Shown: positions 425 through 51,060 of the stretch, one piece after another
Layout: every line of letters begins with the position of its first letter
Position numbering within the stretch: the stretch's first letter is position 1
Assembly (NCBI GenBank): GCA_963920525.1
Contig: OY986439.1
Coordinates: forward strand, 51,829,482 to 51,893,481
Source of the DNA: Dichetophora obliterata
Lineage: Eukaryota; Arthropoda; Insecta; Diptera; Sciomyzidae
Length of the DNA stretch: 64,000 nt
Direction: 5' to 3'
Translations under genes and position numbers: made by a program
The notes under the pieces: model-generated
The model's input: the letters and a program-made list of their open reading frames with translations, nothing else
Database searches by the model: none
Told to the model about the DNA's origin: nothing

Positions 425-2819
425 GATATAGATAAAGATATAGATATAGATATAGATATAGATATAGATATAGATATAGATATAGATATAGATATAGATA
501 TAGATATAGATATAGATATAGATATAGATATAGATATAGATATAGATATAGATATAGATATAGATATAGATATAGATATAGATATAGATATAGATATAGA
601 TATAGATATAGATATAGATATAGATATAGATATAGATATAGATATAGATATAGATATAGATATAGATATAGATATAGATATAGATATAGATATAGATATA
701 GATATAGATATAGATATAGATATAGATATAGATATAGATATAGATATAGATATAGATATAGATATAGATATAGATATAGATATAGATATAGATATAGATA
801 TAGATATAGATATAGATATAGATATAGATATAGATATAGATATAGATATAGATATAGATATAGATATAGATATAGATATAGATATAGATATAGATATAGA
901 TATAGATATAGATATAGATATAGATATAGATATAGATATAGATATAGATATAGATATAGATATAGATATAGATATAGATATAGATATAGATATAGATATA
1001 GATATAGATATAGATATAGATATAGATATAGATATAGATATAGATATAGATATAGATATAGATATAGATATAGATATAGATATAGATATAGATATAGATA
1101 TAGATATAGATATAGATATAGATATAGATATAGATATAGATATAGATATAGATATAGATATAGATATAGATATAGATATAGATATAGATATAGATATAGA
1201 TATAGATATAGATATAGATATAGATATAGATATAGATATAGATATAGATATAGATATAGATATAGATATAGATATAGATATAGATATAGATATAGATATA
1301 GATATAGATATAGATATAGATATAGATATAGATATAGATATAGATATAGATATAGATATAGATATAGATATAGATATAGATATAGATATAGATATAGATA
1401 TAGATATAGATATAGATATAGATATAGATATAGATATAGATATAGATATAGATATAGATATAGATATAGATATAGATATAGATATAGATATAGATATAGA
1501 TATAGATATAGATATAGATATAGATATAGATATAGATATAGATATAGATATAGATATAGATATAGATATAGATATAGATATAGATATAGATATAGATATA
1601 GATATAGATATAGATATAGATATAGATATAGATATAGATATAGATATAGATATAGATATAGATATAGATATAGATATAGATATAGATATAGATATAGATA
1701 TAGATATAGATATAGATATAGATATAGATATAGATATAGATATAGATATAGATATAGATATAGATATAGATATAGATATAGATATAGATATAGATATAGA
1801 TATAGATATAGATATAGATATAGATATAGATATAGATATAGATATAGATATAGATATAGATATAGATATAGATATAGATATAGATATAGATATAGATATA
1901 GATATAGATATAGATATAGATATAGATATAGATATAGATATAGATATAGATATAGATATAGATATAGATATAGATATAGATATAGATATAGATATAGATA
2001 TAGATATAGATATAGATATAGATATAGATATAGATATAGATATAGATATAGATATAGATATAGATATAGATATAGATATAGATATAGATATAGATATAGA
2101 TATAGATATAGATATAGATATAGATATAGATATAGATATAGATATAGATATAGATATAGATATAGATATAGATATAGATATAGATATAGATATAGATATA
2201 GATATAGATATAGATATAGATATAGATATAGATATAGATATAGATATAGATATAGATATAGATATAGATATAGATATAGATATAGATATAGATATAGATA
2301 TAGATATAGATATAGATATAGATATAGATATAGATATAGATATAGATATAGATATAGATATAGATATAGATATAGATATAGATATAGATATAGATATAGA
2401 TATAGATATAGATATAGATATAGATATAGATATAGATATAGATATAGATATAGATATAGATATAGATATAGATATAGATATAGATATAGATATAGATATA
2501 GATATAGATATAGATATAGATATAGATATAGATATAGATATAGATATAGATATAGATATAGATATAGATATAGATATAGATATAGATATAGATATAGATA
2601 TAGATATAGATATAGATATAGATATAGATATAGATATAGATATAGATATAGATATAGATATAGATATAGATATAGATATAGATATAGATATAGATATAGA
2701 TATAGATATAGATATAGATATAGATATAGATATAGATATAGATATAGATATAGATATAGATATAGATATAGATATAGATATAGATATAGATATAGATATA
2801 GATATAGATATAGATATAG
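425..2819 (+). repeat. (GATATA)n hexanucleotide array, block 1
   Basis: About 2.4 kb, roughly 399 units, of uninterrupted GATATA repeats. The only variant seen is a T-to-A change near 436, at the outer edge. The right end runs directly into the 5' truncation point of an R1-clade retrotransposon. The array reads open in several frames as dipeptide repeats, which are artefacts of the repeat. Confidence 0.98.
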
Positions 2820-4224
2820 ACATAGTATCAGACTATCTGGATAACAGAATTTTAATCTATGAGACGGAAAATGGTATAAAAGAGCACCAAATAACAGCAG
2901 GTGTACCTCAGGGCTCAGTATTAGGACCATTCCTGTGGAATGTAATGTACGATGGTCTACTGAATTTGGAATTACAAGAAGGTGCAAAACTAATAGGTTA
3001 CGCTGATGATATTGCTCTGGTAGTAAACCAGCGAACTGCCGAATTAATCGAGATAGTGGTAAACGATAGCTTATGTCGTTGTAACAGATGGCTGCGAAGA
3101 AACGGTTTGAAACTTGCAGTTCCAAAAACGGAAGCAATTCTAGTGACAGATCGTAGGGTCTTCAAAATACCGAAAATACGTCTACAAGATAGAGAGATAC
3201 CCTTTAAACGAAGCTTATGCTATTTGGGTGTGCAATTAGATGACAAACTTAGCTTTGGACAGCACGTAGTAAATATTCGTGACAAAGCTTTGCGAACGGC
3301 AGCATCATTGGCCAGAATAATGCCAAACTGTGGTGGCCCAAGGCCGCAGATGAGAACATTAATAAACAGCGTAGTACACTCCCAGCTTCTTTATGCTGCT
3401 CCAACCTTTGTCAGGGCACTGAATCTGAAGAATAATATGAGGGAACTACAGAAAGCACAGAGAGTTAGTGCTCTCCGTATTATATCAGCGTACCGTACAG
3501 TGTCCACAAGTGCGGCTTTAGTGCTTGCAGGTCTGCCACCAATAGACTTATTAATACTGGAAAGAGAAGAAATATATACCCAAACTAAACTTATAAGTTG
3601 GGCGAACACTAATACACAAGAGCGAAAGAAAAAAATTTCAGAAATAAAAATTAATGCCAGGGACAATGTAGTGACTAAATGGCAAGAACGTTGGAATCAA
3701 AACATGAACGGGAGCTGGACATATAGCCTTATCCCCAATATAAAAGTCTGGCTGGAAAGACGACATGGAAACATGGGATATTTTCTGACTCAGGCTATGA
3801 CAAACCATGGTAGTTTTAACAAATACCTGCATAGATTTAAACTTAAAGAAATAAGCAGCTGTGATTCATGCGCAGCGCTAGAAGAAGATGCAAAGCACAT
3901 ACTTTTCGAATGTGAAAAGTGGTTGGAGGAGAGACGAGCTTTAAATGATATGCTAGGTGTTACATTAACTGAAGAGAATCTGTTGAACGAAATGCTAAAA
4001 TCTGAACATGCATGGACTTTGTGTGAAAGACACATAAATAAAATATTAAAGGAGAGAAACTTCAGTAGTTCCGAACCTCCTTGCTTAAGGAGGACGTAGG
4101 AATCTAACGAAATCAAACCCCCGTCCTGATGAAATGCTGACGCGGTTCCGGGGTGGAGCTGGTGGAGTATCGTGGGGCCACTAGATGATAGCGCGCTATC
4201 ACTACGTCCAACAAAAAAAAAAAA
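2820..4224 (+). mobile_element. R1-clade non-LTR retrotransposon, 5'-truncated copy
   Basis: This is the 3' part of the element at 5761-9011: the sequence from 2821 matches that from 7604 onward almost base for base through the 3' UTR. It ends in 12 A residues (4213-4224) followed by GATATA. Two substitutions are visible in the 3' UTR relative to the longer copy, so both insertions look recent. Its 5' junction lies directly against array block 1, with no other DNA between. Confidence 0.93.
2822..4099 (+). pseudogene. ORF2 3' fragment of R1-clade retrotransposon
   Basis: An open frame of 425 codons corresponding to residues 580-1005 of the intact ORF2 at 5868-8885. It retains the reverse transcriptase GVPQGS and YADD motifs (YADD codons begin at 2999), the thumb and the C-terminal CCHC finger, but lacks the endonuclease and the first RT motifs. 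Five amino acid substitutions and a one-residue deletion separate it from the longer copy. It has no start codon of its own and should not make active enzyme. It is a product of incomplete target-primed reverse transcription. Confidence 0.93.
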
Positions 4225-5760
4225 GATATAGATATAGATATAGATATAGATATAGATATAGATATAGATATAGATATAGATATAGATATAGATATAGATA
4301 TAGATATAGATATAGATATAGATATAGATATAGATATAGATATAGATATAGATATAGATATAGATATAGATATAGATATAGATATAGATATAGATATAGA
4401 TATAGATATAGATATAGATATAGATATAGATATAGATATAGATATAGATATAGATATAGATATAGATATAGATATAGATATAGATATAGATATAGATATA
4501 GATATAGATATAGATATAGATATAGATATAGATATAGATATAGATATAGATATAGATATAGATATAGATATAGATATAGATATAGATATAGATATAGATA
4601 TAGATATAGATATAGATATAGATATAGATATAGATATAGATATAGATATAGATATAGATACAGATATAGATATAGATATAGATATAGATATAGATATAGA
4701 TATAGATATAGATATAGATATAGATATAGATATAGATATAGATATAGATATAGATATAGATATAGATATAGATATAGATATAGATATAGATATAGATATA
4801 GATATAGATATAGATATAGATATAGATATAGATATAGATATAGATATAGATATAGATATAGATATAGATATAGATATAGATATAGATATAGATATAGATA
4901 TAGATATAGATATAGATATAGATATAGATATAGATATAGATATAGATATAGATATAGATATAGATATAGATATAGATATAGATATAGATATAGATATAGA
5001 TATAGATATAGATATAGATATAGATATAGATATAGATATAGATATAGATATAGATATAGATATAGATATAGATATAGATATAGATATAGATATAGATATA
5101 GATATAGATATAGATATAGATATAGATATAGATATAGATATAGATATAGATATAGATATAGATATAGATATAGATATAGATATAGATATAGATATAGATA
5201 TAGATATAGATATAGATATAGATATAGATATAGATATAGATATAGATATAGATATAGATATAGATATAGATATAGATATAGATATAGATATAGATATAGA
5301 TATAGATATAGATATAGATATAGATATAGATATAGATATAGATATAGATATAGATATAGATATAGATATAGATATAGATATAGATATAGATATAGATATA
5401 GATATAGATATAGATATAGATATAGATATAGATATAGATATAGATATAGATATAGATATAGATATAGATATAGATATAGATATAGATATAGATATAGATA
5501 TAGATATAGATATAGATATAGATATAGATATAGATATAGATATAGATATAGATATAGATATAGATATAGATATAGATATAGATATAGATATAGATATAGA
5601 TATAGATATAGATATAGATATAGATATAGATATAGATATAGATATAGATATAGATATAGATATAGATATAGATATAGATATAGATATAGATATAGATATA
5701 GATATAGATATAGATATAGATATAGATATAGATATAGATATAGATATAGATATAGATATA
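4225..5760 (+). repeat. (GATATA)n hexanucleotide array, block 2
   Basis: About 1.5 kb, roughly 256 units, separating the two R1-clade copies. One T-to-C variant at about 4661 is the only interruption seen. The array starts immediately after the oligo-A tail of the left copy and ends at the 5' junction of the right copy, so it is shared flanking DNA for both insertions. Confidence 0.98.
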
Positions 5761-5871
5761 GAAGCGGAAACGAGATGCATACTATGCCATGAAAGTGGCT
5801 CAATAAATTCTCAGCATTATATTAGTAGTACAGCGTGTGCAATCAACATAAGAAATAAAGCAAGAAAATGA
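5761..5871 (+). pseudogene. ORF1 (gag-like) 3' end with last zinc knuckle
   Basis: The frame ending in TGA at 5869-5871 encodes about 36 residues. They contain C-x2-C-x9-H-x6-C, which fits the last zinc knuckle of R1-clade ORF1 proteins; these nucleic-acid-binding proteins package the element RNA. The rest of ORF1 is missing because the copy is 5'-truncated. The stop codon overlaps the ORF2 start as ATGA, suggesting that ORF2 is translated by termination-reinitiation, as known for SART1 of the same clade. It is too short to act as a protein. Confidence 0.72.
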
Positions 5872-8800
5872 TCACGAAATTTCTACAGATCAATCTAGGA
5901 CGGGGTAGAGAAGCGCAAGACCTGATGATACAGAAGGCGACAGAGATTAATGCAGACATACTTTTAATAAGCGAACCGTACAGAAACCCACCATCCCAAG
6001 TTTGGTACGAAGACAAAAACCATTGCGCAGCCATCATGGTAAGAAACAGAAGATTAATAATAAGCGAAGTTGATGAAAGCAACGCTGGCTTCGTATATGT
6101 CACAGTGGGCAAAATTAGGGTATATAGTTGCTACTTTTCACCAAATATAGACTTTAATTTGTTTGCAGAAGCCCTTAACATACTTGATGTTTCTATCAGG
6201 TCCTCAAAATATAAAGTGATCATTGGAGGAGACTTCAATAGTAAATCTACAGAATGGAACTCCAAAAAAATGGATAAAAAGGGTACTACAGTGTGTGAAA
6301 TGGTTGCTAGTCTTGGTCTTACGATATTTAATATCGGAGACAAACTTACCTTTCGGAGAGGTACAGGTGGTAGTATTATCGACATCACCTTTGGAACGAC
6401 AAACCTCTACAATGAAAACATGAATTGGATAGTGCTGGAAGATCTCACCTTAAGTGACCACCAGTATATCTCATTTAATATAGATGAACGTCCAAATATG
6501 AGTGTAGAAGATGCAAATTTCCCAAGATGGAACGTCAGAAAACTTGATGACAAAAAATTGTCCGATTATATTACTCGGGCTAAGGATAGAAATATGGATA
6601 ACCAATCCGAAAATATAAATGTAGAAAATGCCGCAGAGTCGCTGACGAAGATACTCACAAAAGCGTGTAATGTCGCAATGCCAAGAGCTCAAAAATACAA
6701 TAACAAGCGCCCAGTATACTGGTGGAATGCTAAAATACGTGAGTTGAGGGCGAAATGCCTTGCAGCACGTCGAGCGTCAACACGAAACTATGATAACCAG
6801 CTCTTAACGGTTGAGTATAAAACGGCACGTAAAACCTTAAGAACAGCCATAAAAGAGAGTAAGAAAAGATGCTGGACAGAGCTATGTAACGAAATAGATT
6901 CCGACCCATGGGGCAAACCGTACAAAATTGTGATGAAAAAGCTTGGTAGCATTAAACCTATACCCGGCATTAAAGAACCAGTGTGGGCAACAACAATAGT
7001 AGAAACACTATTTCCATTCGATGAAGATGGGCTAAAAAGAGAACCAAATTATCAAGTCGAAGGTTTCATCCCTCTGAACGTAGGTGACATTACACATGCA
7101 TGTAGTAAACTAAAAATAGGTAAGAGCCCAGGACCAGATGGTATACCAAATGAGGTCATAAAAGTAGTATGTGAGATATGGCCAGATCTTTTACTTGAAG
7201 TCTTCAATTCATGTCTAATAAACGGAATCTTTCCAGCTAAATGGAAAATACAAAAGTTAGTTTTGTTACGAAAGGGAAATAAACCATTAAATGAGCCTAG
7301 TTCCTATAGACCACTCTGTATGTTGGATTCACTAGGAAAATTATTAGAGTACGTAATGCTAAAACGTTTGGAAGAGCGCATAGATGACCTTGGCGGACTA
7401 TCCCCTATGCAACATGGCTTCCGCAAAGGGAAGAGTACAGTTGATGCCATTAGCGCAGTATGCAATAAAGCTATACAGGCCAAAACAACAGGAGAATACT
7501 GCTCAATAATAACACTAGATGTTAAAAATGCTTTTAACACAGTAAAGTGGAAAGTAGTACTACAAGCTTTCAGAAACCGACGTTTAGATAACTATCTCTT
7601 TAACATAGTATCAGACTATCTGGATAACAGAATTTTAATCTATGAGACGGAAAATGGTATAAAAGAGCACCAAATAACAGCAGGTGTACCTCAGGGCTCA
7701 GTATTAGGACCATTCCTGTGGAATGTAATGTACGATGGTCTACTGAATTTGGAATTACAAGAAGGTGCAAAACTAATAGGTTACGCTGATGATATTGCTC
7801 TGGTAGTAAACCAGCGAACTGCCGAATTAATCGAGATAGTGGTAAACGATAGCTTATGTCGTTGTAACAGATGGCTGCGAAGAAACGGTTTGAAACTTGC
7901 AGTTCCAAAAACGGAAGCAATTCTAGTGACAGATCGTAGGGTCTTCAAAATACCAAAAATACGTCTACAAGATAGAGAGATACCCTTTAAACGAAGCTTA
8001 TGCTATTTGGGTGTGCAATTAGATGACAAACTTAGCTTTGGACAGCACGTAGTAAATATTCGTGACAAAGCTTTGCGAACGGCAGCATCATTGGCCAGAA
8101 TAATGCCAAACTGTGGTGGCCCAAGGCCGCAGATGAGAAAATTAATAAACAGCGTAGTACACTCCCAGCTTCTTTATGCTGCTCCAACCTTTGTCAGGGC
8201 ACTGAATCTGAAGAATAATATGAGGGAACTACAGAAAGCACAGAGAGTTAGTGCTCTCCGTATTATATCAGCGTACCGTACAGTGTCCACAAGTGCGGCT
8301 TTAGTGCTTGCAGGTCTGCCACCAATAGACTTATTAATACTGGAAAGAGAAGAAATATATACCCAAACTAAACTTATAAGTAGGGCGAACTCTAATACAC
8401 AAGAGCGAAAGAAAAAAATTTCAGAAATAAAAATTAATGCCAGGGACAATGTAGTGACTAAATGGCAAGAACGTTGGAATCAAAACATGAACGGGAGCTG
8501 GACATATAGCCTTATCCCCAATATAAAAGTCTGGCTGGAAAGACGACATGGAAACATGGGATATTTTCTGACTCAGGCTATGACAAACCATGGTAGTTTT
8601 AACAAATACCTGCATAGATTTAAACTTAAAGGAATAAGCAGCTGTGATTCATGCGCAGCGCTAGAAGAAGAAGATTCAAAGCACATACTTTTCGAATGTG
8701 AAAAGTGGTTGGAGGAGAGACGAGCTTTAAATGATATGCTAGGTGTTACATTAACTGAAGAGAATCTGTTGAACGAAATGCTAAAATCTGAACATGCATG

Positions 8801-8885
8801 GACTTTGTGTGAAAGACACATAAATAAAATATTAAAGGAGAGAAACTTCAGTAGTTCCGAACCTCCTTGCTTAAGGAGGACGTAG
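5868..8885 (+). CDS. ORF2 polyprotein: endonuclease and reverse transcriptase (R1 clade)
   Basis: An uninterrupted 1005-codon frame. Residues 1-220 form an APE-like endonuclease: the N-terminal QINLGR stretch, a LLISEPY motif, GGDFNS at about 120-125 and SDH at 196-198. Residues about 470-760 form the reverse transcriptase: LDVKNAF (550-556, catalytic Asp 551), GVPQGS (606-611) and YADD (639-642). A C-terminal finger C926-x2-C929-x9-H939-x4-C944 matches the R1-clade pattern. The family protein nicks a chosen target and reverse-transcribes the element RNA from the exposed 3' end. The ATG at 5868 is chosen because it overlaps the ORF1 stop. All catalytic motifs are present, so this copy could supply activity, but its promoter and most of ORF1 are gone. 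Confidence 0.93.
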   Translation: MITKFLQINLGRGREAQDLMIQKATEINADILLISEPYRNPPSQVWYEDKNHCAAIMVRNRRLIISEVDESNAGFVYVTVGKIRVYSCYFSPNIDFNLFAEALNILDVSIRSSKYKVIIGGDFNSKSTEWNSKKMDKKGTTVCEMVASLGLTIFNIGDKLTFRRGTGGSIIDITFGTTNLYNENMNWIVLEDLTLSDHQYISFNIDERPNMSVEDANFPRWNVRKLDDKKLSDYITRAKDRNMDNQSENINVENAAESLTKILTKACNVAMPRAQKYNNKRPVYWWNAKIRELRAKCLAARRASTRNYDNQLLTVEYKTARKTLRTAIKESKKRCWTELCNEIDSDPWGKPYKIVMKKLGSIKPIPGIKEPVWATTIVETLFPFDEDGLKREPNYQVEGFIPLNVGDITHACSKLKIGKSPGPDGIPNEVIKVVCEIWPDLLLEVFNSCLINGIFPAKWKIQKLVLLRKGNKPLNEPSSYRPLCMLDSLGKLLEYVMLKRLEERIDDLGGLSPMQHGFRKGKSTVDAISAVCNKAIQAKTTGEYCSIITLDVKNAFNTVKWKVVLQAFRNRRLDNYLFNIVSDYLDNRILIYETENGIKEHQITAGVPQGSVLGPFLWNVMYDGLLNLELQEGAKLIGYADDIALVVNQRTAELIEIVVNDSLCRCNRWLRRNGLKLAVPKTEAILVTDRRVFKIPKIRLQDREIPFKRSLCYLGVQLDDKLSFGQHVVNIRDKALRTAASLARIMPNCGGPRPQMRKLINSVVHSQLLYAAPTFVRALNLKNNMRELQKAQRVSALRIISAYRTVSTSAALVLAGLPPIDLLILEREEIYTQTKLISRANSNTQERKKKISEIKINARDNVVTKWQERWNQNMNGSWTYSLIPNIKVWLERRHGNMGYFLTQAMTNHGSFNKYLHRFKLKGISSCDSCAALEEEDSKHILFECEKWLEERRALNDMLGVTLTEENLLNEMLKSEHAWTLCERHINKILKERNFSSSEPPCLRRT

Positions 8886-9011
8886 GAATCTTACGAAATC
8901 AAACCCCCGTCCTGATGAAATGCTAACGCGGTTCCGGGGTGGAGCTGGTGGAGTATCGTGGGGCCACTAGATGATAGCGCGCTATCACTACGTCCAACAA
9001 AAAAAAAAAAA
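8886..9011 (+). other. R1-clade 3' UTR and oligo-A tail
   Basis: The segment from the ORF2 stop to the oligo-A run is nearly identical to 4100-4224 of the left copy, with two substitutions. It is comparatively GC-rich, with a CGGTTCCGGGG segment and gcgcgctatcac near the end. In non-LTR elements this region is recognised by the reverse transcriptase, so it is the probable RNA handle for target-primed reverse transcription. Confidence 0.8.
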
Positions 9012-9245
9012 GATATAGATATAGATATAGATATAGATATAGATATAGATATAGATATAGATATAGATATAGATAAAGATATAGATATAGATATAGATAT
9101 AGATATAGATATAGATATAGATATAGATATAGATATAGATATAGATATAGATATAGATATAGATATAGATATAGATATAGATATAGATATAGATATAGAT
9201 ATAGATATAGATATAGATATAGATATAGATATAGATATAGATACA
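9012..9245 (+). repeat. (GATATA)n hexanucleotide array, block 3
   Basis: About 39 units after the oligo-A tail of the right R1-clade copy, with one T-to-A variant near 9076. The array decays into GATACAGG at the right edge. Together with blocks 1 and 2 this suggests one ancestral array of more than 4 kb split by two insertions. Confidence 0.97.
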
Positions 9246-9633: not shown

Positions 9634-10667
9634 ATGGGCAAGGGCAAAGAAATTTGTGAACCAATTCGAAAAACAGTAATTAAATTAAGAAATGACGGCA
9701 AATCTCTCAACGAAATTGGACAAATATTAAATTTAAAAAAGCCTACGGTCCAAACAATAATAAAAAATTTCAAAGAAAGTGGAAATTACGAAAGTAAAGC
9801 TCGTTCCGGCCGCCCTCAATTGCTTGATATTCAAACAGAACGAACTGTTATTCGCTCCGTCAAAGAAAATCCTAAGCAATGCGCAGTCGAATTAAATCGA
9901 AAAATAAAGACTGATCTGGGAGTAACTGTTTCCGACCAGACCGTTCGCAGGTCCATCAAAAGGAATGGCTATAATAGCAGAGTTGCAAGAAAAAACCACT
10001 ACTAAGAGCTGTGAACATACAAAAACGCTTGGAATACGCACAAAAGTATGAAAACGTTCATATAAATGACCCCACTTTTTGGGAAAGAGTAATATTCACC
10101 GATGAGTGTAAATTTATGGTATTTGGAGGTGATGGCCGTTCCAAAGTGTGGCGCAAGGCGAATACGGAGTTATTACCCCAAAATGTTAACTCCACAGTGA
10201 AACATGGAGGCGGGTCAGTCATGGTCTGGGGATGTATGGCAGCAAATGGTGTTGGCAAACTGCGATTCATCGATGGTATTATGGATAAGACCATGTATGT
10301 GGATATTTTAAAGGACAGCTACCTCCCTAGCATTGAAATGTTGGATCTGGAAGGAAATTCTATATTTCTGCAGGATAACGATCCGAAGCATTCTTCGAAG
10401 ATAGTGAAGGAATGGCTTCTCTATAACGTCAAACACAAGCTGGAACATCCCCCACAATCTTCTGACCTAAATGTTATTGAGCATTTATGGGATGTTTTGA
10501 AACGAGGTCTGAAAAAACGTCACATCACATCCATTTCATCGTTGAAGGAAGCCTTGCAGGACGAGTGGAGCAAAATTAATCCTGAAATAACCAAAAAATT
10601 GGCTTTTTCCATGCCATCTCGATTATCAGCTGTAATAAAAGCCAAAGGAGGACACACAAACTACTAA
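9634..10667 (+). pseudogene. Tc1 transposase with one frameshift
   Basis: Two adjacent frames (9634-10005, 123 codons; 10011-10667, 218 codons) together give about 341 residues, the usual Tc1 length. The first has the paired helix-turn-helix DNA-binding region and a GRP motif. The second has the catalytic core: FTDE, then QDNDPKH, then 34 residues to the Glu of NVIEHLW, that is DD34E, plus the GGGSVMVWG stretch. One A is missing from an A run near 9990-9995, which puts a stop at about 10003-10005. Otherwise the gene appears intact, so the loss is recent or is a homopolymer sequencing error. The enzyme family catalyses cut-and-paste transposition into TA. Confidence 0.92.
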
Positions 10668-10907: not shown

Positions 10908-11046
10908 TATAAAAAACTCGTGTCACGGTGTTTGTTGCAGAACTCCTTCGAAACGGCTCAACCGATTTTCATGAAAATTTGTATGTATATTAAGTAAATA
11001 TGAAAATAAGTCTTAAAGTATATTTCACTCTCCTGCCCTCAGTGGG

Positions 11047-11630
11047 CGTGGCACCTCCCATACAACCCAAATTTGCGATATCGAATATCTTTGGAGTTAT
11101 AGACAGCTTAGCCTCGGAATTCGGTATTCGACCACAATTTACACGTGCCGCTTCGCTAATAATATTTCATGGGAGCTAGACAAGGAGGCATGGCACCTCC
11201 CATACAATCGAAATTTGCGATATCGAATAACTTTGGAGTAATAGACCGCACAGCCTCGGAATTCGGTATTCTATAACAATGTACACGTGGCGTTTCACTG
11301 ATAACATTTTATGGGAGTTAATAAGAGGAAGTGGCACCTCCCAAACAACCCACATTTTCGATATCGTAAAGCTTTTGAGTTATAGGCTGCACAGCTTCGG
11401 AATTCAGTATTCGAACTCAATTTACACATGCAGTTTTACTGATAACTTTGTTATCGTTTGGACAAGAGGCGTGGCACTTCCCATACAACCTTAATTTGAT
11501 AAATTCAACAACTTTTGAGTAATAGGTCGCACAGCCATGAAATTCAGTATTCGACCACAATTTACATATACAGTTTCACTGATAACATTTTATTCGCGTT
11601 TGGCAACGGGGCCGTGGCAGCAACTCGCCG
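11047..11630 (+). repeat. Tandem repeats of about 141 bp inside Helitron-like element
   Basis: The word gtggcacctcccatacaa recurs at about 11048, 11189, 11331 and 11471, with a partial copy near 11612. Each unit also carries a gatatcg block, a gcctcggaattcggtattcg block and ttcactgataacatttt. Period is 141-142 bp over about four units with moderate divergence. Confidence 0.85.
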
Positions 11631-47344: not shown

Positions 47345-49350
47345 AAATGAACAGCATACGTTAAAATTAATTCATTGATTTTAATGAAAAAATCATTGAG
47401 TTTTAATGAATTGCTCATAGTTTTTAACGTACTTTTCATTGAAATCAATGAAGTTATATTCATTAAAAATGTCTAAATAAATGTCAATGATTTGTTTTCA
47501 TTATTTTAATGGACTTTTTATTGATATCAATGAAAAGTACATTGATTCCAGTTGTAAATCAAATTTTAACGAACCATGCATTGATTTTTAATGAACAGTT
47601 CATTGAATTCAATGTTTAGGTCATTAAATGCAATGTATAGTTCATTAAATTCAATGTATAGGACATTGAATTCAATGTATAGTTCATTGAATTTAATGTA
47701 TAGTTCATTGAATTTAATGTATAGTTCATTGAATTCAATGTATACTAATTTATTCCCTTCCCAATTTTGTTTGAAGTGAAACGCGAAGTTCTGAAGACGA
47801 GTGGCAATTGTGTGTGTAAATCTATATATATAAAATAGGATGTGTGTATGTATGTAACCGTATGGACTCCAATGATTTGTTTTCATTATTTTAACGGACT
47901 TTTTATTGATATCAATGAAAAGTACATTGATTCCAGTTGTAAATCAAATTTTAACGAACCATACATTGATTTTTAATGAACAGTTCATTGAATTCAATGT
48001 TTAGGTCATTAAATGCAATGTATAGTTCATTAAATTCAATGAATAGGTCATTGAATTCAATGTATAGTTCATTGAATTCAATGTATTGTTCATTGAATTT
48101 AATGTATAGTTCATTAAATTCAATGTATTGTTCCATGATTTCAATGTATAGTTAATAAATTCAATGTATAGTTCATTAAATTCAATGTATATTTCATTAA
48201 ATTCAATGTATAGTTCATTAAAATCAATGCATAGTTCATTAAATTCAATGTATTCAGTTCATTAAATTCAATGTATACTAATTTATTCCCTTCCCAATTT
48301 TGTTTGAATTGAAACGCGAAGTTCTGAAGACGAGTGGCAATTGTGTGTGTAAATCTATATATATAAAATAGGATGTGTGTATGTATGTAACCGTATGGAC
48401 TCCAATGATTTGTTTTCATTATTTTAATGGACTTTTTATTGATATCAATGAAAAGTACATTGATTCCAGTTGTAAATCAAATTTTAACGAACCATACATT
48501 GATTTTTAATGAACAGTTCATTGAATTCAATGTTTAGGTCATTAAATGCAATGTATAGTTCATTAAATTCAATGAATAGGTCATTGAATTCAATGTATAG
48601 TTCATTGAATTCAATGTATTGTTCATTGAATTTAATGTATAGTTCATTAAATTCAAGGTATTGTTCCATGATTTCAATGTATAGTTAATAAATTCAATGT
48701 ATAGTTCATTAAATTCAATGTATATTTCATTAAATTCAATGTATAGTTCATTAAAATCAATGCATAGTTCATTAAATTCAATGTATTCAGTTCATTAAAT
48801 TCAATGTATACTAATTTATTCCCTTCCCAATTTTGTTTGAAGTGAAACGCGAAGTTCTGAAGACGAGTGGCAATTGTGTGTGTAAATCTATATATATAAA
48901 ATAGGATGTGTGTATGTATGTAACCGTATGGACTCCAATGATTTGTTTTCATTATTTTAATGGACTTTTTATTGATATCAATGAAAAGTACATTGATTCC
49001 AGTTGTAAATCAAATTTTAACGAACCATACATTGATTTTTAATGAACAGTTCATTGAATTCAATGTTTAGGTCATTAAATGCAATGTATAGTTCATTAAA
49101 TTCAATGAATAGGTCATTGAATTCAATGTATAGTTCATTGAATTCAATGTATTGTTCATTGAATTTAATGTATAGTTCATTAAATTCAATGTATTGTTCC
49201 ATGATTTCAATGTATAGTTAATAAATTCAATGTATAGTTCATTAAATTCAATGTATATTTCATTAAATTCAATGTATAGTTCATTAAAATCAATGCATAG
49301 TTCATTAAATTCAATGTATTCAGTTCATTAAATTCAATGTATACTAATTT
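47345..49350 (+). repeat. Left arm array, 21-bp unit with 14-bp palindrome
   Basis: The 21-bp unit is close to tatagttcattgaattcaatg, whose cattgaattcaatg half is its own reverse complement. The spacer reads tatagtt, tataggt or tattgtt in one orientation. From about 47485 the array is embedded in larger tandem copies of 533 bp. Confidence 0.88.
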
Positions 49351-49467
49351 ATTCCCTTCAAAATTTTGTTTGAAGTGAAACGCGAAGTTCTGAAGACGAG
49401 TGGCAATTGTGTGTGTAAATCTATATATATAAAATAGGATGTGTGTATGTATGTAACGTATGGACTC
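47485..49467 (+). repeat. Tandem 533-bp higher-order repeat
   Basis: The landmark caatgatttgttttcatt starts units at 47485, 47870, 48403 and 48936, and the next boundary is at about 49468. Spacings are 385 (a deleted unit), 533, 533 and 532. Copies are almost identical. Each carries the 21-bp palindrome array, a ttcccttcccaattttgtttgaa block and a Helitron-like 5' tip (tctatatatataaaatagga). The array probably arose by unequal exchange or rolling-circle amplification. Confidence 0.92.
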
Positions 49468-49763
49468 CAAAACGGCTGGGCCAATTTTGATGAAATTTTC
49501 AGGTAATGTTCATCTTGGTACGGTGGGTAACATAGGCTATATTTGGACCCGATAGGTGGCGCTGGGGTGGATTTATATCGAAAATTTGAATTTATGGACC
49601 AATTTAACTGAAATTCAGAATGTATGTTTGTTTGATCATAAGAAAATAATTTGTGGCGCTGGGGTGGACTTATTTCGAAAATTCGATGGCGTGAAAAATA
49701 TATAAATACTTTTAATTTTATTTTATAACGAGGGGAGTAGCGAAGCACACCGGGTTCAGCTAG
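49420..49763 (+). mobile_element. Short Helitron-like element
   Basis: Starts a|tctatatatataaaatagga, includes a cggctgggccaattttgatgaa motif and ends gaagcacaccgggttcagctag|t, with TC, CTAG and AT insertion as for Helitrons. Its end nearly repeats that of 41413-43103. It is 344 bp with no coding capacity. Its first 50 bases are copied into each 533-bp unit to its left. Confidence 0.65.
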
Positions 49764-49917
49764 TTTTAGATAAAAGGTGATAATAAATTTAATTCAAAGT
49801 GAAGAAAATGCTTTGAATGTAAAAGAAAATTTAAATCTGTTGAATTGCTATTAGTATAGGTAAATAGTAGGAAATATACCTGACATTTTAAGTGACTGCT
49901 GCCATCAATTTCAAAAA
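49764..49917. other. Upstream region of the central gene
   Basis: AT-rich segment between the Helitron-like end and the first ATG of the central gene. No TATA box is convincing. Confidence 0.35.
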
Positions 49918-50519
49918 ATGTTTACATTTTTAAAGGTTGAAAACCACATAAAAGACAAAGCTGTGCGGGCAAAGTTGGCAGATATTGAGGATTTCACTAA
50001 TTACAGTGGTAAGCTTAATTTTTCTCGAGGCTAAATAAATAAATAGTTATTTTTTCAATTAATATCTTTCCAAACAGTACTGCTATGAAACTTCTTTGGA
50101 GCCTTCATGGGCATTTGGTGCCCACTCAAAAAGTATGCAGTAAGGACAACTTTGGAAGAAAAACTTTCCTAAAGCATACAATTACCAGTTCCCAAGAGGC
50201 ATTCGTTTTTGTTGGAAGCAGCATCCAGGAAGTCGAGGAGCATATTGAGTTTTTAAAAACTAAAGGCGAAAATATTCAACCATTAATCCTTGCTGTTGGA
50301 GAGAAGAACTTCTCCTCATTCCAACCATTTTATGTGTTCATTGATGGTGTAAAATTTCAATTTGCTAGTTTTATTAGAGCCGTAGACGTGTGCTTTAAAA
50401 TTTTTCAATTATTTCAATTAATATATCCTGTGGCATGCACTCTCGTGTGGAAGTTTATTGCCGTCTATTTTTTTATAAATTTAAAAACTATTCAAAATCT
50501 TCGAAAATTTGTATATTAA
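49918..50519 (+). CDS. Unrecognised two-exon gene inside palindrome-armed element
   Basis: Exon 1 (49918-50008) codes MFTFLKVENHIKDKAVRAKL and on to FTNYS. A likely 69-nt intron follows (donor gtaagc, acceptor ccaaacag). Exon 2, open from 50085 to 50519 (145 residues), includes RKTFLKHTITSSQEAFVFV, EEHIEFLKTKGENIQPLILA, FYVFIDGVKFQFASFIRAVD, then FKIFQLFQLIYPVA and a hydrophobic end. With this splice the phase is off by one, so either the gene is frameshifted, or the start is ATG 50085, or the junction differs. The pattern IQP..L.VG...YV.IDG...F.SF..AVD.CFK resembles, from memory, uncharacterised proteins linked to repeats in many animals; no function is known to me. No catalytic motif is visible. 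It may be the element's own gene. Confidence 0.5.
50009..50077 (+). other. Candidate intron of the central gene
   Basis: cagtg|gtaagctt ... ctttccaaacag|tactg, 69 nt, GT-AG. Joining gives a frame mismatch of one base, so the exact junction is uncertain. Confidence 0.45.
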
Positions 50520-50574
50520 TTGACTCTTTAAAATAAAAAAATATTGTTGAATTTGTAATTATTTCCTTATTTTA

Positions 50575-51060
50575 AAAATGTTTAGAGATGGATTAACAAA
50601 TAATTCGTTGAATTTAACGCATAGATCATTCATTCCAATAAACTAAATAGATTAAATTTAGTTAAATATACATGGAATTCAATGAACTGAATACCTCAAA
50701 TTTAATGAACAGTACATTGAATCCAATAAACTAAATACATTAAATTCAATGATCTTAATACATTATATTTAATGAAATAATTATTAAATTCAATGAACTA
50801 TACATTAAATTCAATAAACTATACATTGAATTCAATAAACTATAATACATTGAATTCAATGAACTATACATTGAATTCAATGAACTATACATTGAATTCA
50901 ATGTAAGTTTCATTGAACTATACATTAAATTCAATGAACTATACATTGAATTCAATGACCTATACATTGAATTCAATGAACTTTACATTGAATTCAATGA
51001 ACTTTTCATTAAATTCAATGAAAAAATCATTAATTTTTGCATTTTTTTAATGAACGTGTT
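50575..51060 (-). repeat. Right arm array, inverted 21-bp palindrome unit
   Basis: Units read caatgaactatacattgaatt, the left arm unit in reverse complement. The spacer aactata is the inverse of tatagtt in the left arm. About 15-20 units are visible, without the 533-bp expansion. The edge toward 51060 has caatgaaaaaatcattaa and ttaatgaacg. Confidence 0.85.

Follow-up and report, generated by a model that had tools for sequence, protein, structure and literature searches.

The genome of the fly Dichetophora obliterata (Diptera; Sciomyzidae) very probably harbours an R1-clade-like long interspersed nuclear element (LINE) with specificity for a class of microsatellites, most of its targets sharing the site TA^S, in which S is G or C and the caret marks the insertion point on the element's strand. 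Two copies of this element lie inside a (GATATA)n array in the stretch of DNA analysed here, a window of 64,000 nucleotides (contig OY986439.1, positions 51829482-51893481) within a 1.31-Gb assembly (GCA_963920525.1). A preliminary description made from the window had proposed an R1-clade element specific for (GATATA)n and locked to one phase of the array. The evidence comes from junctions, an orientation rule, arrays that border the copies at either end and intact domains, all of them observed directly.

Insertion sites across the genome

A protein search of the genome gave 52,642 first-look candidates, of which the 46 best copies with complete open reading frame 2 (ORF2) were scored; the choice of these copies was independent of their flanks and dependent on high similarity. 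A second search, with the last 299 bases of the element, gave 316 candidates; of the best 40, which were scored, 14 had already been counted in the 46, leaving 26 to be read. Seven further 3' ends lay in stretches already fetched around other copies and are biased towards arrays. The total of 79 3' junctions (46 + 26 + 7) is thus a sample of high-scoring copies and no census.

Simple repeats follow the element at all 79 of the 3' flanks read. Each of the 46 complete-ORF2 copies has an A-rich tail and then a microsatellite with a unit of 4-6 bp, namely GATATA in 20, GTATA in 13, CTATA (the reverse strand of GTATA) in 8, GATA in 2, and GGTATA, GACATA and GAGGTA in one each, the 3' flank of no. 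24 being assigned to GTATA by eye. Among the 26 further copies, whose units were also read by eye, GATATA occurs in 10, GTATA in 7 and GATA in 3 (including L115, an imperfect simple repeat), with one copy each in CTATA, GACATA, GGTATA, GGTATG (L109), a GATATA/GATA mixture and a GTATA array with an extra T in front (L103). The seven neighbouring 3' ends likewise lie in such microsatellite arrays. In some copies the array on the 3' side is short, with 3-5 units in nos. 9, 29 and 41 and in L119. As a separate observation, L029 carries at 4612-5247 a second, very short copy directly behind a CTATA array of few units, and insertions can accordingly lie very close together.

Within the arrays the bond is fixed. 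The junction reads TA^S, with G or C directly behind the tail and a unit that places TA in front of that base, in 75 of 79 cases against 22.1 expected if phase and strand were random within these arrays (44 of the 46 against 13.1; 68 of 72, with the 26 further copies added, against 20.0), figures for which we claim no exact probability, because insertions that share an array are not independent events. Most copies in the sample therefore share one kind of target and a fixed bond, as in a sequence-specific LINE family. The rule also predicts orientation, one way where the unit has TA^S on a single strand and both ways in (GTATA)n, where both strands have it. All 41 insertions in the one-strand units (GATATA, GATA, GACATA and mixed) lie on the permitted strand, and both element orientations are found in (GTATA)n (13 and 8 of the 46). 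A single (GTATA)n array can hold both, as where L003 and the copy at L031 1-1092 stand with their 5' ends face to face; nos. 19 and 25 are probably also opposed in one GTATA array, their ORF2 starts being 2.6 kb apart.

These junctions place the phase-locking first proposed on firmer ground. By our own reckoning the match between the window's two junctions is weak when taken alone, arising by chance about once in three times if the ambiguity of A is counted, and phase-locking is strong because junctions elsewhere in the genome agree. The single orientation seen in the window holds for units with TA^S on one strand and fails for (GTATA)n.

It might be argued that the enzyme does not read sequence at all, and that insertions merely survive, or are aimed, in a repeat-rich chromatin compartment. 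AT-rich microsatellite arrays may indeed be heterochromatic or harmless, and selection against other insertions is possible. However, a compartment of this kind leaves both the TA^S bond and the permitted strand unexplained, and none of the 79 insertions lies in CA despite 32,565 genome matches to (CA)18, which is a modest control, since these matches cover about 65 kb and the array ends, where (GATATA)6 covers about 0.3 Mb. We consider this alternative improbable.

The array as target

The repeat is the target of the element and not its tail, as the preliminary description had held, because the same array adjoins the 5' side in 43 of the 46 copies, where the unit found at the 3' end also borders the 5' edge, in the same strand sense and to within about 6 nucleotides (by eye). 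Nor is the unit encoded by the element, since units differ among copies although ORF2 in 29 of the loci diverges by at most 0.56% (median 0.27%). Across the sample, flanks are neither mostly unrelated DNA nor marked by GATATA on the 3' side only.

There are 50,646 genome matches to (GATATA)6, amounting to about 0.3 Mb or about 0.023% of the genome in pure runs of at least 36 bp, and 45,375 to (GTATA)7; (ATATG)7, its reversed control and a repeat devoid of TA^S, has 3,747. In 34 kb of control DNA taken at round coordinates, short-unit arrays accounted for only 211 bp, with AAAT as the unit. Two unselected arrays, the first of (GATATA)n and the first of (GTATA)n to be listed on C1 (1.8 and 1.5 kb), both lying whole within the stretches fetched, show no match to the window.

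A reverse transcriptase that adds variable simple-repeat tails, themselves entered by later copies, could in principle have made the arrays itself. Other LINEs make short tails, and copies of the present element often share an array (in the window and at L004, L021, L029, L031 and L066). Against this, the unit stands at the 5' side of 5'-complete and truncated copies alike, it varies among nearly identical copies, both orientations occur in GTATA arrays, and the two unselected kilobase arrays are without the element. We have rejected element-made tails as largely refuted by the 5' flanks, the varied units and the empty arrays, and hold them to be very unlikely. Weaker still is strict (GATATA)n specificity with other arrays as rare mistakes, which the unit counts refute and which has next to nothing left to recommend it, for although no single unit is commoner than GATATA (20 of the 46 and 10 of the 26), GTATA and CTATA take 21 of the 46 and 9 of the 26 (L103 included), mostly at the same cut site, and (GTATA)7 arrays are similarly abundant. 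Of the specificity first proposed, microsatellite targeting is upheld, but GATATA itself accounts for only 32 of the 79 junctions plus the one mixed GATATA/GATA array.

The 5' junctions and the proposed second cut

Exactly complete 5' ends were found in 21 copies. The flank ends two bases past TA in 14 of them (GA 8, CT 5, GT 1), and in 13 of those 14 the 3' flank begins at S, which implies that about 2 bp were duplicated (modulo the repeat unit), the absolute length being unreadable inside a repeat. Seven of the 21 deviate, and second-strand cutting is for that reason inexact. To the left of the copy in L024 (1-409), TATAG and CTATA stretches alternate, inverted around unrelated DNA, as after rearrangement.

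Several observations weigh against a class-level TA^S specificity or limit its reach. Four of the 79 junctions break the rule, namely no. 26 (TAG^GTATAG), no. 28 (TA^TAGTATA), L103 with its extra T, and L109 in GGTATG. Copies from a common array do not count as independent observations, and high-scoring copies favour young ones, so that the sample is without old, diverged copies. On the 5' side the exceptions are no. 24 (other DNA), no. 37 (about 35 nucleotides of AT-rich non-array sequence in between) and no. 23 (N). Among the 21 complete 5' ends, four stop at GTAT and not at GT, and three are otherwise off (nos. 6, 8 and 36); no. 28 has the GT end at 5' with an off-phase 3' side, and both ends thus agree with a duplication of 2 bp in only 13 of the 21. 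Where the start of the element matches the array, its first base can be placed only to within 1-2 bases. Finally, the tandem-repeat requirement rests on an absence, that of insertions at lone TA^S sites.

The element

The domains of ORF2, its neighbours among solved structures and the annotation of its relatives point to an R1-clade-like LINE. Its endonuclease and reverse transcriptase match the Pfam families PF14529 (3.7e-21) and PF00078 (1.5e-33), with a zf-RVT match below the Pfam cut-off, and no RNase H family was found by the Pfam search at E <= 0.001. Residues D122, N124, H198, D551 and A640-D641-D642, which we take to be motif residues, are invariant across 66 aligned sequences (the window's included), as are C926, C929, H939 and C944 of a C-terminal CCHC. 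A C-terminal CCHC without an RNase H domain is a mark of the R1 clade. So is an ORF1 with zinc knuckles overlapping ORF2, and in the L003 copy ORF1 (466 amino acids) ends at 1504 and ORF2 (1004 amino acids) starts at 1501, a four-base overlap; this ORF1 has one zinc knuckle above the Pfam cut-off and, by eye, two further CCHC-like patterns behind it. In copies with a complete 5' end about 2.0 kb precede ORF2, so that a full copy measures about 5.2 kb.

Structure prediction of ORF2 gave a confident model, with a mean predicted local distance difference test score (pLDDT) of 90.3. In a fold search the modelled endonuclease part resembles the endonucleases of TRAS1 and R1Bm (template modelling score, TM, 0.81 by target), to which it is nearest among solved structures; the TRAS1 endonuclease structure 1wdu is both the best sequence match of the domain and the top endonuclease-only chain in the fold search. 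The closest relatives of ORF2 are 72-83% identical, and the named relatives are proteins of Lucilia (blowfly), at 51-55% amino acid identity, annotated as R1.

No stop interrupts ORF2 in 42 of the 46 scored copies. That many copies are intact and nearly identical suggests that the element is, or recently was, active, although the copies compared score best and are hence young by choice.

The locus in the window

Two same-strand copies break the (GATATA)n array of the window into three runs (Table 1), and the observations of the preliminary description were borne out here, both copies having the array on each side and an oligo-A tail (12 A and 13 A by hand count) followed by GATATA in the same phase. 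Array DNA lies directly at each truncation point, the 5' junctions reading ...GATATAGA^CATAG for copy 1 and ...GATATAG^AAGCGG for copy 2, with base 2820 common to copy 1 and the array and base 5762 common to copy 2 and the array. The copies agree at 1406 of 1418 aligned positions over their common length. They are separate insertions because their 5' truncation points differ, and we rejected the notion that copy 1 is a mere duplicate of copy 2, the different truncations each standing against array. Copy 1 has RVT_1 and zf-RVT matches, both below the Pfam cut-off.

Table 1. Features of the (GATATA)n locus (window positions).
Feature	Position	Strand	Remarks
(GATATA)n target array, left part	425..2819	+	left edge is unrelated DNA
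Element copy 1	2820..4224	+	5'-truncated in the reverse transcriptase domain, with 3' untranslated region (UTR) and A12 tail
Oligo-A tail of copy 1, then GATATA	4213..4224	+	
(GATATA)n target array, middle part	4225..5761	+	
Element copy 2	5762..9011	+	5'-truncated in the ORF1 zinc knuckles
ORF2 of copy 2	5868..8885	+	1005 amino acids; APE (apurinic/apyrimidinic)-type endonuclease, reverse transcriptase, C-terminal CCHC; no stop
3' UTR of copy 2	8886..8998	+	within the 3'-end probe (8700-8998)
Oligo-A tail of copy 2, then GATATA	8999..9011	+	
Right part of the (GATATA)n target array, with unrelated DNA behind it	9012..9243	+	

No Rfam family reached its gathering score in the window, and a special fold of the 3' UTR found no support (z = -0.26). 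No related DNA was found in bacterial genome contigs, viral contigs or phages, by a search that may omit records near the window's genome. Elsewhere in the window, a Tc1/mariner-like transposase in two frames, recognised by eye from open reading frames, lies just right of the array (9634-10667), a 142-bp tandem repeat is present in about 4 copies at 11045-11593, and a 21-bp satellite (AATGTATAGTTCATTGAATTC) forms two fields of opposite orientation within 47590-51022, with about 1.3 kb between them.

Proposed mechanism and comparison with known elements

In a scheme of target-primed reverse transcription, we envisage that the APE-type endonuclease of ORF2 would nick S^TA within an array of short units, on the strand that pairs with the element's TA^S, and that the 3' end so released would serve as primer for copying the element RNA, starting at its oligo-A tail. 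In most complete copies the other strand would be cut about 2 bases further on (TASW^), leaving the short duplication described above, and unfinished first strands would give 5'-truncated copies. We infer that the endonuclease alone reads the site, and likewise the duplication length and the order of the cuts. The lack of insertions at lone TA^S sites suggests in addition that several tandem units are required.

TRAS, an R1-clade LINE of Bombyx telomere repeats, is like the present element in its APE endonuclease fold and in its bond, TA^G. According to PMC7265360, the insertion point of TRAS lies between C and T in the CCTAA strand, and the TRAS1 endonuclease is reported in PMC2868851 to cut the C-T junction of CCCTAA and the other strand at T-A. 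TRAS differs in having a single target, (TTAGG)n, a repeat that occurs at none of our 79 junctions; here there are many units, G or C after TA, and use of both GTATA strands, with the second cut apparently about 2 bases past TA and not at T-A. SART1Bm, according to PMC7265360, needs at least three repeats, still uses 4 of 5 single-base mutants of the unit, and has the A of TTAGG as an essential base. Its natural target is telomeric, unlike the arrays entered here, but it is a precedent for a loose unit with a fixed base and for a tandem-repeat need, and because of these mutant data an enzyme wanting a tandem array and one or two fixed bases has experimental precedent.

That R1-clade families enter simple repeats is already known. 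Waldo is such a family, in ACAY repeats. Mino, also of the R1 clade, inserts in AC repeats as stated in PMC3124438. Both are like the present element in being aimed at simple repeats, and are likened to it by target only; AC repeats are found at none of the 79 junctions. R1 itself, an element of 28S ribosomal DNA (rDNA), is brought to mind by the annotation of the Lucilia relatives and by the R1Bm fold match, whereas no rDNA target is present among the 79 junctions read. A LINE specific for GATATA or TATAG was not found in a literature search by titles and abstract openings that did not extend to papers behind subscription (Kojima and Fujiwara 2003, for example). What seems to be new is a single family that in nature targets a whole class of units under one cutting rule, from which both phase and orientation can be predicted.

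A bolder idea, offered tentatively and which we would not ourselves favour at present, is that the endonuclease reads only TA^S and tandem periodicity, so that its targets form an open-ended class of 4-6-bp microsatellites. To our knowledge, flies of this group are without TTAGG telomeres, and the enzyme could be a cutter of the TRAS type (C^TAA) that has exchanged telomere repeats for TA^S microsatellites at interstitial sites.

The microsatellite-aimed R1-clade LINEs known to us, Waldo and Mino, are described by one repeat each. In D. obliterata, by comparison, the seven units (GTATA and CTATA counted once) entered by near-identical copies amount to a natural mutation series, indicating that the enzyme requires TA and then G or C within a tandem array. 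This provides a direct model, open to test, of how an endonuclease of the APE type recognises its target, and it links interstitial microsatellites to telomere-repeat LINEs that cut the same bond. For the fly, TA^S arrays may be a harmless refuge for the element, sparing genes.

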